Shown here in pieces: positions 20,181-37,138 of a stretch of 64,000 nucleotides of DNA (position 1 is the first letter of the stretch; each line of letters opens with the position of its first letter). The DNA comes from Pseudaquabacterium terrae (lineage in GTDB: Bacteria; Pseudomonadota; Gammaproteobacteria; Burkholderiales; Burkholderiaceae_C). The DNA lies in NCBI RefSeq assembly GCF_013266755.1, contig NZ_JABRWJ010000001.1:558001-622000 (forward strand). The letters are read 5' to 3'. The translations under genes were made by a program, and so were the position numbers. Below the pieces are notes generated by a model that saw only the letters and a list, made by a program, of their open reading frames with translations, made no database searches and was not told the origin of the DNA.

Positions 20181-21515
20181 ATGAACAGCACCGCCACCAA
20201 GCACCGCATCGTCGTCGTCGGCGGCGGTGCCGGCGGGCTCGAGCTGGCCACGCGCCTGGGCGACACGCTGGGCCGGCGCGGCCGCGCCGAGATCACGCTG
20301 ATCGACAAGAACCGCACCCATGTCTGGAAGCCCAAGCTGCACGAGATCGCCGCCGGCAGCATGGACCTGAGTGCGCACGAGGTGGACTACCTGGCGCAGG
20401 CGCACTGGCATCACTTCCGCTTCCGCATCGGCGAGATGATCGCGCTGGACCGGCAGCGGCGCGAGGTGCGCGTCGCGCCCTACCGGGATGCCGAGGGCCG
20501 CGAGGTCACGCCCGATCGTGTGTTCGGTTATGACACGCTGGTGCTCGCGCTGGGCAGCCAGAGCAACGACTTCGGCACGCCGGGTGTTGGCGAGCACGCG
20601 TTGAAGCTCGAGTCGAAAGCCGATGCGCAGCGCTTCCATGCCCGCATGGTTAATGCCTGCATCCGCGCGCATGCCCAGGGCACGCCCTTGCGGCCCGAGC
20701 AGTTGCACGTGGCCATCATCGGCGCCGGCGCCACCGGCGTCGAGCTCGCCGCCGAGCTGCACCGCACCACGCGCGAGGTCGTCGCCTTCGGGCTCGACCG
20801 CGTCGATGCCGACAAGGACATCCAGGTCAACCTGATCGAGGCGGCCGACCGCGTGCTGCCGGCGCTGCCGCCTCGCATGTCGCAGGCCACCGAAGACCTG
20901 CTGCGCAAGCTGGGCGTGCTGGTGCATACCAGCGCGAAGGTGGCCGCGGTGCGGGCCGACGGCGTGCAGCTGGCCGATGGCCGCGTGCTGCCGGCCGAGC
21001 TGGTGGTGTGGGCGGCCGGCGTCAAGGCGGCCGACTTCCTGAAGGATCTCGCCGGCCTGGAGACCAACCGCAGCAACCAGCTGCTCGTCAAACCGAGCCT
21101 GCAGACCACGCGCGACGACGACATCTTCGTCATCGGCGACTGCGCGGCCTGCGCCTGGCCCGAGGCCAACGGCGGCAAGGGCGGCTTCGTGCCGCCACGC
21201 GCGCAGGCGGCGCACCAGCAGGCCTCGCATGTGGCCGCTCAGATCAAGCGTCGTCTGGCCAACAAGCCGATGAAGGCCTACCGCTACCGCGACTTCGGCT
21301 CGCTCGTCTCGCTGGGCGAATTCAGCACCGTCGGCAACATGATGGGCGGGCTGATCGGCGGCAGCCTGATGATCGAAGGCGCCTTCGCGCGATTGATGTA
21401 CGTGTCGCTCTACAAGATGCACGAGCTGGCGCTGCACGGCTTCCCGAAGATGGCGCTCGACACGCTGGCGCGCCTCATCACGCGGCGCACCGAGCCGCAC
21501 GTCAAGCTGCATTGA
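20181..21515 (+). CDS. Type II NADH dehydrogenase-like FAD oxidoreductase
   Basis: 444 residues from ATG 20181, 34 bp after dctA with AGGAG upstream. Two dinucleotide folds are visible: HRIVVVGGGAGGLELATRL for FAD at the N-terminus and LHVAIIGAGATGVELAAEL for NAD(P)H near residue 180. A third FAD contact is IFVIGDCAACAWP. FVPPRAQAAHQQASH and a hydrophobic C-terminal region (FARLMYVSLYKMHELALHGF) fit membrane-bound NDH-2. It would reoxidise NADH made by PDH and pass electrons to quinone. It is the last gene of the operon, and the structured element at 21577 begins 61 bp downstream. Confidence 0.88.
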   Translation: MNSTATKHRIVVVGGGAGGLELATRLGDTLGRRGRAEITLIDKNRTHVWKPKLHEIAAGSMDLSAHEVDYLAQAHWHHFRFRIGEMIALDRQRREVRVAPYRDAEGREVTPDRVFGYDTLVLALGSQSNDFGTPGVGEHALKLESKADAQRFHARMVNACIRAHAQGTPLRPEQLHVAIIGAGATGVELAAELHRTTREVVAFGLDRVDADKDIQVNLIEAADRVLPALPPRMSQATEDLLRKLGVLVHTSAKVAAVRADGVQLADGRVLPAELVVWAAGVKAADFLKDLAGLETNRSNQLLVKPSLQTTRDDDIFVIGDCAACAWPEANGGKGGFVPPRAQAAHQQASHVAAQIKRRLANKPMKAYRYRDFGSLVSLGEFSTVGNMMGGLIGGSLMIEGAFARLMYVSLYKMHELALHGFPKMALDTLARLITRRTEPHVKLH

Positions 21516-21576
21516 GGCGGGCGCCAGCATGAATCGACCTACAACGCTCGCTCTGCTCGCGGTGCCGGCCGGAGCG

Positions 21577-21801
21577 GCAAAGCCGGGCGCGGGCTGCACG
21601 GCCCGGGCGAGATGGCGGTCGGCCCTGGGGGGCCGACTGCTCTGCGCTGCTCGCAGACGCGGGATGGGTCCACAACTCGGGCCGGAGTACCGGCCCTCAG
21701 ACACGTGGACCCAGCTCCCTTCGGTCGCCGACCCGCGCCTGCTGCGCTGCTCGACGCTCATCTCTGAATGCCCGGGCCGCGCAGCCCGCGCCCGGCTTTG
21801 C
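21577..21801. repeat. Structured TIR element A1 (novel family)
   Basis: A 225-bp unit bounded by 32-bp terminal inverted repeats (21577-21608 and 21770-21801, one mismatch) that begin GCAAAGCCGGGC. Inside are nested hairpins. One is a GTCGGCC/GGCCGAC stem near 21618-21637. Another is an outer stem GGGTCCAC (21666-21673) with GTGGACCC (21705-21712). This encloses GGGCCGG-AGTA-CCGGCCC (21679-21696). No credible ORF lies across it. It is paired with A2 in opposite orientation 75 bp away. It resembles a MITE in layout, but no target duplication is evident to me. Confidence 0.8.
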
Positions 21802-21876
21802 ACAACCACCGAGGTGCGCGAAGGACTTCAAGACCGAGGCATGCGGCTGTTCAGTCCGCAGGCCATCACAGCCTCT

Positions 21877-22099
21877 GCAAAGCCGGCGGCGGGCACGCTG
21901 GCCGGGCAGTCAGGGGGCCGCGCCGAGCAGCGCAGCGGATGCGGGTCGGCGACCGAAGGGAGCTGGGCGGACGTGTCTGAGGCCCTGTACTCGGGGCCGA
22001 GTTGTCCGCCCATCCCGCGTCCGCGAGCAGCGCAGGGCAGTCGGCCCCCAGGGCCGACCGCGGTCTCCGCCCGGCCAGCGTGCCCGCCGTCGGCTTTGC
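21877..22099. repeat. Structured TIR element A2 (inverted copy of A1)
   Basis: A 223-bp unit with 31-bp terminal inverted repeats (21877-21907 and 22069-22099, one mismatch). Its body is the reverse complement of A1 with scattered changes. The outer stem is GGGCGGAC (21965-21972) with GTCCGCCC (22004-22011). It therefore differs from A1 at several bases yet still pairs perfectly, while the loop bases GAGTAC are kept. Its TIR also differs from A1's TIR on both sides in step. The right flank (22137-22154) resembles the right flank of element B2. Confidence 0.8.
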
Positions 22100-22225
22100 C
22101 GCTCCGCCCTCCGCAAGACTGCATTCAAGACAAGCCAACGACCGCTCAGGGCCGCAAGCTGTCGCTCGCGCCGCCCCACCACCGCATCCAACGCGGCGCA
22201 TGTCCAGAACGAGGAAGCCGCTGAG

Positions 22226-23353
22226 ATGGACTTCGATTTTTCGCCCGAACAGAAGGAGATCCAGCACCAGGCGCGGCGCATGCTGGTCGAGTGCTGCGAT
22301 CTGCGTGCCGTGCGCCGCGTGCTCGACGAGAGCCGCGGCTGGGATCCGGCGCTTTGGCAGCAGGTGGCCGAGCTCGGCTGGCTGGGGGCAGCGATCCCGG
22401 AGGCCTATGGCGGACTCGGGCTCGGTGGCGACACGCTGGCGGTGATCGCCGAGGAGCTCGGCCGCGCGCTCGCGCCGCTGCCGGTGAGCTCGTCGATCTA
22501 CCTCGCCGCGCCCTGCGTGCTGCATGCCGGCAGCGAGGTGCAGCGCAGCGAATGGCTGCCGGAGCTGGCGAGCGGCGAGCACATCGCGACGCTGGCCGCG
22601 GCCGAGGGGCTGGTCGGCGTCGACGAGCTCGCGCGCCATGCCGCGCGCGTGCGCGGCGGGCGCTTGAGCGGCATCAAGCTGCCGGTGCCCGATGGCCTGC
22701 TCGCGCATTGGGCCGTGGTGACGGCGCACGACGAGGCCGGCGTGCCGGGCCTGTACAGGGTCGACCTGGGCGGCCCCGGCGTCACGCGCACGGCACTCGA
22801 GAGCCTGGATCCCACCCGGCCGGTGGCGCGCATCGTGTTCGATGCCGCGCCAGCGCAGCGTCTGGGCGGTGATGCCGATCCAGCGCCAGACGCCCACGCG
22901 GTGCTGCAGCGCGTGCTCGACGAGGCCGCGGTGTGGATCGCGTTCGAGCAGGTCGGCGCGGCCGACGCGGCGCTTGCGATGAGCGTGGACTACGCCCGGC
23001 TGCGCCACGCGTTCGGGCGGCCGATCGGCTCGTTCCAGGGCATCAAGCACAAGCTCGCCGACATGTACGTGCGCAACCAGCTCGCGCGCGCCAATGCCTG
23101 CTGCGGCGCCTGGGCGCTGACGGCCGGCTCGGCCGAGCTGCCACTGGCGGCCGCCTCGGCCCGCATATCGGCCTCGGAGGCGGCCGAGTTCGCCGCCAAG
23201 GAAACGATCCAGACCCACGGCGGCATCGGCGCCACCTGGGAGGCCGATCCGCACCTGTTCTACCGCCGCGCCCGCGTGCTGCAGGGCGTGATCGGCGGGC
23301 CGGCGGTGTGGCGCGAACGCCTGGTCGAGGCGCTGCAGGCGGGCGTCCAGTGA
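22226..23353 (+). CDS. Acyl-CoA dehydrogenase (FadE-like, short type)
   Basis: 375 residues from ATG 22226. It has the ACAD start MDFDFSPEQKEIQ, the N-terminal helical domain through GWLGAAIPEAYGGLGLG, and the C-terminal helical domain with YARLRHAFGRPIGSFQGIKH and IQTHGGIGATWEADPHLFYRRA. The middle beta domain is short and poor in the usual flavin-contact motifs. That is common in the heteromeric ACADs of steroid and isoprenoid degradation. It dehydrogenates an acyl-CoA at C2-C3. It is the first gene of the catabolic cluster, immediately right of element pair A. Confidence 0.88.
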   Translation: MDFDFSPEQKEIQHQARRMLVECCDLRAVRRVLDESRGWDPALWQQVAELGWLGAAIPEAYGGLGLGGDTLAVIAEELGRALAPLPVSSSIYLAAPCVLHAGSEVQRSEWLPELASGEHIATLAAAEGLVGVDELARHAARVRGGRLSGIKLPVPDGLLAHWAVVTAHDEAGVPGLYRVDLGGPGVTRTALESLDPTRPVARIVFDAAPAQRLGGDADPAPDAHAVLQRVLDEAAVWIAFEQVGAADAALAMSVDYARLRHAFGRPIGSFQGIKHKLADMYVRNQLARANACCGAWALTAGSAELPLAAASARISASEAAEFAAKETIQTHGGIGATWEADPHLFYRRARVLQGVIGGPAVWRERLVEALQAGVQ

Positions 23354-36428: not shown

Positions 36429-36446
36429 CGGCCCGTTGCGGTCGTT
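36429..36446 (+). repeat. Outer inverted repeat of composite B, left
   Basis: CGGCCCGTTGCGGTCGTT is the exact reverse complement of 37121-37138. The two 18-bp sequences enclose elements B1 and B2 and their spacer. Confidence 0.7.
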
Positions 36447-36488
36447 GGTGTGGGTGGTCGTTTGGGACTTGTTTCGTGTTGAGCGCCC

Positions 36489-36718
36489 GAGCGGCTCGGG
36501 GTGCGGGCACGGCGGGCCGAATCCGGCGGTCGGCCCTGGGGGGCCGACTGCGTTCCGGTCCTCAGCCCGGGGGCGCGCCGTCCATTTAGCTTCGTTCGCT
36601 GCGCTCACTGCGCACAGCGCCGGCGAGTCAGTCTACGAAGCTCGCTGCGCTCGCCGCCCCCGGGCTTCCGGTCCTCACCGCCTCCCACGGCCCGCCATGC
36701 CCGCACCCCGAGCCGCTC
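36489..36718. repeat. Structured TIR element B1 (novel family)
   Basis: A 230-bp unit with 30-bp terminal inverted repeats (36489-36518 and 36689-36718, one mismatch) starting GAGCGGCTCGGGGTGCGGGC. Directly inside the left TIR is the same GTCGGCC/GGCCGAC hairpin as in A1, which ties the two pairs into one family although the rest of the core differs. A strong internal stem pairs AGCCCGGGGGCG with CGCCCCCGGGCT. The centre is rich in AGCTTCG/CGAAGCT and GCTGCGCTC motifs. No ORF in it looks coding. Confidence 0.78.
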
Positions 36719-36848
36719 TCCTGCAATTGCGGTGGCGTGCGGTCCTTCGAATTCCTAGACGCTTTCCGCGGCCCACCGTGCCTGCACTCCGACTTGCCCA
36801 TCAGCGACTGCGGTGGCGTGCGTCCTTCTGAAGTCCTCGGTGACTCGC

Positions 36849-37078
36849 AAAGGCGCGGGCGGGCAGGCCGCAGCGCGCGTGGGAGGCGCCGGGCTTGGGC
36901 GCTTCGGGGGCGGCGAGCGAAGCGAGCTTCGTAGGCTGACTCGCCGGCGCTGTGCGCAGTGAGCGCAGCGAACGAAGCTAAATGGACGGCGCGTCCCCGA
37001 GGCGCTCAAGCCCGGGAAGTCGGCCCCCCAGGGCCGACCGCCGGATTCGCGCGCTGCGGCCTGCCCGCCCGTGCCTTT
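36849..37078. repeat. Structured TIR element B2 (inverted copy of B1)
   Basis: A 230-bp unit with 31-bp terminal inverted repeats (36849-36879 and 37048-37078, one mismatch), inverted relative to B1. The core around GCTTCGTTCGCTGCGCTCAC is nearly identical to B1. The TIR and the long inner stem have changed on both sides together, again keeping pairing. The 130-bp spacer between B1 and B2 holds two imperfect direct repeats beginning GCGGTGGCGTGCG (about 36730 and 36810). Confidence 0.78.
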
Positions 37079-37120
37079 GTCGCTCCACACGCCGCAAGCC
37101 AACGACGAACACGCGCACCG

Positions 37121-37138
37121 AACGACCGCAACGGGCCG
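37121..37138 (-). repeat. Outer inverted repeat of composite B, right
   Basis: AACGACCGCAACGGGCCG is an exact inverted match of 36429-36446. A similar sequence (AACGACCGC-TCA-GGGCCG) lies at 22137-22154, just right of element A2, so this flank belongs to the repeated unit. Confidence 0.65.

Follow-up and report, generated by a model that had tools for sequence, protein, structure and literature searches.

The 64,000-nt stretch of Pseudaquabacterium terrae DNA analysed here (the window) contains a pair of inverted, strongly structured units in a gap between two genes, which raises the question of whether such a pair is a mobile element and, if so, of what kind. The initial annotation, made from the letters alone, had described two ~225-bp units in mutual inversion within 710 bp free of genes, each with near-perfect terminal inverted repeats and nested hairpins of its own. 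Our analysis agrees with this anatomy: the gap is free of genes over the said length, the two units are inverted relative to each other, both have near-perfect terminal repeats, and an inverted-repeat search recovered the hairpins nested inside them. In our reading, to which we assign a probability of roughly 0.7, the locus (hereafter E1) is a non-autonomous dispersed DNA element, mobile or once mobile, that is composed of two large self-complementary units, which differ from each other and keep a fixed head-to-head order, with a short spacer between them and short outer arms.

Architecture of the composite element

The features of E1 and of a second element in the window are listed in Table 1. 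E1 has inverted arms of 165 nt that are 82% complementary and outer arms of 65 nt at 78%, and it is slightly larger than first described, with inverted homology out to 21567 and 22109 (composite arms 21567-21631/22045-22109, 78%). Only the right side of E1 shows a recognisable outer arm, which includes AACGACCGCTCAGGGCC (22137-22153). The second element belongs to a diverged family, E2, and this copy carries both outer arms.

Table 1 Coordinates of the elements and neighbouring genes in the window
Feature	Position	Strand	Basis or remark
E1 unit A, long branched hairpin	21577..21801	+	inverted repeats, fold, unit HMM
Unit A closing stem, outer arm	21577..21608	+	31/32 complementary to 21770-21801
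Unit A closing stem, inner arm	21770..21801	+	pairs with 21577-21608
Unit A side hairpin, GTCGGCCC..GGGCCGAC	21618..21637	+	present in E2-type units too
Unit A central hairpin	21656..21722	+	inverted repeat and fold
E1 inter-unit spacer	21802..21876	.	CACCG..GGTG and GCATGC motifs, in other copies too (by eye)
E1 unit B, head-to-head with unit A	21877..22099	-	
Unit B closing stem, outer arm	22069..22099	-	30/31 complementary to 21877-21907
E1 left outer extension, GGCCGGAGCG	21567..21576	.	rest of left outer arm not recognised
E1 right outer arm	22100..22155	.	minus strand: GGCCCTGAGCGGTCGTT ... CTTGCGG ... GGAGCG
Upstream gene, putative oxidoreductase	20181..21515	+	translation, by eye; 3′ end 55 bp from E1
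Downstream gene, putative acyl-CoA dehydrogenase-like	22226..23353	+	translation, by eye
Second element, E2 family, diverged	36430..37137	.	between convergent genes
E2 outer arm	36430..36446		
E2 unit A	36489..36718	+	
E2 unit B	36848..37079	-	
E2 outer arm	37121..37137		

The head-to-head order is a constant feature of the element. A unit HMM was applied to 30 loci (L266-L295, one per genome from the family-wide search described below, the E2 copy of the window included) and found two units in 22 of them, all 22 head-to-head with their outer ends pointing outward, as well as a single unit in the other eight, in one of which (L272) the sequence ends at the unit. Conservation runs through the interior of the element and not through its ends alone. 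What is dispersed is the head-to-head pair with its outer arms, not two separate ~225-bp elements.

A third family, E3, consists of paired palindromes of ~100 bp (L238 at about 1718-2110, L247 at about 1080-1500, and L219:2190-2520), whose shorter units were missed by the unit HMM. E1, E2, and E3 have an outer arm in common, and the two E3 copies in the window’s genome share the arm GGCCCGTTGCGGTCGTT with E2. We considered whether the outer arm could be a separate host repeat, an idea that is weakened by the finding that all eight exact outer-arm motifs in this genome adjoin elements (six at E1/E2 and two at E3); GGAGCGRCAAAG occurs 11 times in the draft, ten times at elements and once at C12:92200 (L056). 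In genome G003, a relative of E3 (L219) fills the gap downstream of the oxidoreductase gene that carries E1 in the window.

Dispersed copies and empty sites

The initial annotation had suggested looking for further copies, empty sites, and target duplications, and the first two were found. Unit A matches about ten separate places in the window’s genome (G000, an 8.0-Mb draft in 56 contigs): two intact E1 pairs (in the window and on C54), one half-element (C34:552 kb), three short remnants (C34:182 kb, C55:64 kb, and C2:114 kb), and four places truncated by contig ends (C2, C17, C8, and C6), where two such ends may in some cases belong to a single copy. The flanks of the repeated copies are unrelated. 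Between the window and C54 pairs the match is 91% over 535 bp, spacer included, and since this match spans the spacer, the pairs have been copied as pairs; within the window pair, unit A and unit B are 82% alike. Four further E2 places lie at contig ends (C55, C10, C45, and C8). The element breaks draft assemblies, with eight G000 contig ends falling inside elements (C2, C6, both ends of C8, C10, C17, C45, and C55), and copy numbers from draft genomes are therefore uncertain.

Comparison between genomes showed that some copies are inserted between genes, at sites that are empty in relatives. The window’s genome has a shortened E1 copy between glgB and glgX (identified by Pfam). The same junction in G003 is without ~370 bp, and the two genes there overlap at ATGA in our own reading, while in G018, G004, G013, and G016 the matched ends lie 44-134 bp apart, with no element in the stretch read. 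An intact pair is present between xdhA and xdhB (Pfam domains) in both G225 and G121, and short gaps are found at this site in G023, G024, G025, G008, G027, G032, G060, and G064, where the matched ends are 28-133 bp apart, their positions in the query being separated by 801 or more. G025, empty here, has copies elsewhere. As the xdhA-xdhB copy is common to G225 and G121, it is no proof of present activity. Regarding target duplications, there is one imperfect 10-bp repeat (CCTGAGATGA/CCTGACATGA) at glgB-glgX and no clean case, and none was evident by eye at the E2 copy of the window; the 10-bp repeat, a single case and the sole hint of duplication, may possibly be a target repeat.

Distribution among genomes

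E1-like matches (E ≤ 1e-10) were found in 2 of the 21 genomes of the genus, and E2-like matches in 6, one of these having a lone short match. In the bacterial family, an E2 query (E ≤ 1e-8) recovered 38 of the 299 genomes, spread over 23 of 141 genera; these are lower bounds, as scoring was limited to two candidates in each genome. Among the carriers with a name are Rubrivivax sp. A210 and Methylibium sp. NZG, together with two further Rubrivivax records. Nothing in the plasmid or phage collections matched the element. A degenerate pattern matched at least 112 genome stretches and 25 viral stretches, and blastn (E ≤ 1e-5) placed the element in 17 among the 112 genome stretches listed and in none of the 25 viral ones. 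The remaining pattern matches were taken as chance.

Folding and compensatory change

Folded as DNA, unit A reaches −101.5 kcal/mol against a shuffled mean of −59.6 (z = −11.7, with 0 of 200 shuffles as good), and as RNA its two strands give z = −10.1 and −12.3. Our alignments showed that each unit’s own fold is conserved by compensatory change. In 33 aligned E2-type units, 87.9% of 2843 cells are paired and changes on both sides are seen at 54 of 87 pairs. Their covariation score, obtained for E2-type units only, from related sequences and with a structure derived from the same alignment, is 0.288, against 0.113 ± 0.006 for shuffled controls and 0.044-0.080 for slid ones, the latter being far below the observed score despite the alignment-derived structure. 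The helix of the side hairpin is 98.5% paired in the same 33 units, with both sides changed at 4 of 8 pairs, and in a wider alignment, in which six of the 38 units are E1, 25 of 33 predicted pairs have changes on both sides.

The closing stems allow the arms of one unit to be compared with those of its partner. A unit’s own arms match at 30/31 and 31/32 positions in E2 and at 31/32 and 30/31 in E1, whereas the closing stems of the two units of one element are alike at only 21/33 (E2) and 24/32 (E1). Since the units diverge in the closing stem and yet their own arms match, it is the self-closed hairpin of each unit that is kept. When the whole element is folded, the lower model energy is that of the halves paired with each other (−278 kcal/mol for E1 vs. 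−220 for separate halves), so that energy alone lends no support to the self-closed reading, which is supported by the arm comparison. An earlier comparison of pairing within (1029/1261) and between (763/1253) units, in which 69/87 and 68/85 E1 pairs were kept in the partner unit and 139/175 and 142/172 columns were alike, was dropped because one unit’s structure had been forced onto the other, and it is superseded by the direct comparison of arms.

G-U pairs (85) and A-C mismatches (73) are about equally common among the 2843 cells, in a test where the structure comes from the same alignment and A-type units are out of register, which inflates mismatches. As G-U pairs are not clearly in excess, there is no sign of one RNA strand as the selected molecule, and these counts leave that candidate unsupported. 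We regard the fold as relevant either in the DNA or in RNA from both strands.

Gene context and transcription

Elements sit in gaps with the 3′ end of a gene on at least one side. We assessed 49 elements, remnants included, and called their nearest genes by a codon-usage model, with eight window genes as the training set. Among the 47 elements with both neighbours, 33 lie between tandem genes, 14 between convergent genes, and 0 between divergent genes, compared with 37, 5, and 13, respectively, of 55 background gaps of 50-1500 bp (Fisher P = 0.00017 for divergent and 0.010 for convergent), figures that depend on a simple gene model and on elements that are partly non-independent (L271 and L289, from two genera, occupy gene pairs of one kind). 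The background came from twelve sequences, namely the window plus eleven loci of 8 kb from element carriers; the two element gaps of the window were excluded and those of the eleven other sequences were kept, which biases against the difference found. The median distance to the facing gene 3′ end is 83 bp. In a first run with a cruder gene caller and 30 elements, L033 and L233 were the two that came out as divergent. The second run placed L033 between tandem genes and excluded L233, whose units are 1.3 kb apart; with L233 included the divergent count would be 1/48. Also excluded were L023, L026, L120, L183, L098 (at the site of L231), and the copies of E3. Either the element avoids promoter gaps or inserts there do not survive, and the avoidance could reflect selection rather than targeting.

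The position beside gene ends bears on an alternative that we consider unlikely, namely that these are host 3′-end elements, i.e., structured RNAs that end transcription or stabilise mRNA, are kept by selection, and owe their spread mainly to recombination or gene conversion and not to transposition. The lack of divergent sites, the 14 convergent ones, and the short distance to the facing 3′ end would fit such a role, but no intrinsic-terminator pattern (a GC stem-loop followed by a T run) was found in the E1 region scanned (21450-22250), and several elements lie between likely co-transcribed genes (glgB-glgX, xdhA-xdhB, and permease-amidohydrolase), where a strong terminator would be harmful, which argues against one. 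The 3′ side of the alanyl-tRNA synthetase gene (identified by Pfam) also speaks in favour of this role, as G003 has a hairpin with a T run there (by eye), at the place where the window’s genome has an E1 pair; G018 has a GC hairpin at this place (L239 and L241 against L031:2731-2787). Both the near-equality of G-U and A-C counts and the patchy distribution within the genus (E2-like matches in 6 of 21 genomes) count against it.

Comparison with known systems

No Rfam family matched the window above its curated gathering score. Below that score were c4-a1b1 (E = 0.56) and MIR839 (65.4 bits of the 200 needed, E = 1.3e-12), the latter taken as a generic match to a long hairpin. No title or abstract opening in open-access PubMed Central described the element, among the matches listed, in line with the initial annotation, which had recognised no known family. 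Its comparison of the plan to a MITE or a large REP-like element held in part: the element is multi-copy, intergenic, and palindromic with empty sites, but no cognate transposase, clear target duplication, or GTAG-type tag was found.

Short palindromic repeats are common in bacteria, and integron attC sites are imperfect palindromes that are processed as folded single strands; neither an attC-like core site nor a cassette array was noticed by eye at the element. Bacterial MITEs of the Correia/NEMIS, ERIC, and RUP type are short, non-coding, and intergenic, with terminal inverted repeats and empty counterparts. Our element resembles them in being non-coding and intergenic and in its terminal inverted repeats and empty counterparts, and differs in its bipartite build of two internally folded halves, with no clear target duplication and no cognate IS identified. 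A MITE that is the internally deleted derivative of one specific insertion sequence surviving in some genomes appears quite improbable. Terminal inverted arms and deletion derivatives of about 113 and 120 bp (L034 and L033) would agree with such an origin, but the interior is conserved as well as the ends, and no copy with a transposase between its units was noticed in the loci read. One locus (L233:168-1972) has two units 1.3 kb apart that enclose a 220-aa open frame, which would also suit a deleted insertion sequence, but the frame has no Pfam match and a single sub-threshold NCBIfam match (E = 0.063); it is possibly captured cargo.

In the portions of the literature cited here, the best known mover of short palindromic repeats is the RAYT family, and REPINs/BIMEs are, like our element, extragenic and palindromic, with a conserved inverted pair, many copies, and no gene inside (PMC3116915, PMC2817692, PMC8266576). 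As characterised in the same portions, REP units measure 20-60 bp, whereas the element has units of 225-257 bp, two of them and different, each a branched hairpin closed on itself, with no GTAG tag and no RAYT found in the window’s genome. A GTAG-type tetranucleotide ahead of a 20-60 nt palindrome is absent, the closing stem alone taking up 31-32 bp of a ~225-nt unit. That the element is itself a REPIN or BIME, two inverted REPs moved by a RAYT (TnpA_REP) tyrosine transposase, is hardly credible: a palindromic, extragenic inverted pair spreads by a logic such as PMC3116915 outlines, in the portion cited, for REP doublets, and some outer ends read GGAG, but these ends vary (GGAG, GGCG, and GTGC) with no GTAG head, the units far exceed REPs in size and close on themselves better than on their partner, and Y1_Tnp (PF01797) has 0 matches in the 56-contig draft of the window’s genome, with 5 of 14 control genomes positive.

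The Betaproteobacterial repeat element, or BRE, is likewise a GC-rich, mostly intergenic repeat of Betaproteobacteria including Comamonadaceae, with a length of ~90 bp and often tandem arrays of varying number, according to the part of PMC3110155 cited here, and it is by this description only (~90 bp, tandem arrays) that our element is set apart from it. By analogy, the element would work like a REPIN/BIME or a MITE, that is, as a non-autonomous palindromic element moved in trans.

Proposed mechanism and implications

With no gene in the element, a host- or IS-encoded enzyme would have to act in trans. The paired hairpins may be recognised either in cruciform shape or on folded single strands, such as those at a replication fork, and the enzyme would copy or move the whole pair. 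Inserts in promoter gaps would be avoided or lost, so that survivors would be those after stop codons and between co-directional genes, and the hairpins, once transcribed, would probably affect the 3′ ends or the stability of the mRNA without bringing transcription to a complete stop.

We propose tentatively, as a possibility still some way short of even odds, that the element represents a bipartite class of mobile DNA not described before and widespread in the bacterial family, in which two non-identical self-folding hairpins, set head-to-head, would be the substrate of a putative trans enzyme acting on folded DNA. Such a class would be a counterpart of REPINs without RAYT (one genome tested) and would comprise several sequence families. 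A large, bipartite, covarying, family-wide element, with no RAYT found in the window’s genome, points to another mover, and it offers a direct co-occurrence test for finding that mover. The element also alters the gaps between adjacent genes of shared pathways (glgB-glgX and xdhA-xdhB), which may change their expression between species. In different genomes, elements are found within gene pairs suggestive of purine use (L271, L289, L274, and L294): a xanthine/uracil-type permease with an amidohydrolase twice, xdhA/xdhB, and a Bmp-type ABC transporter.
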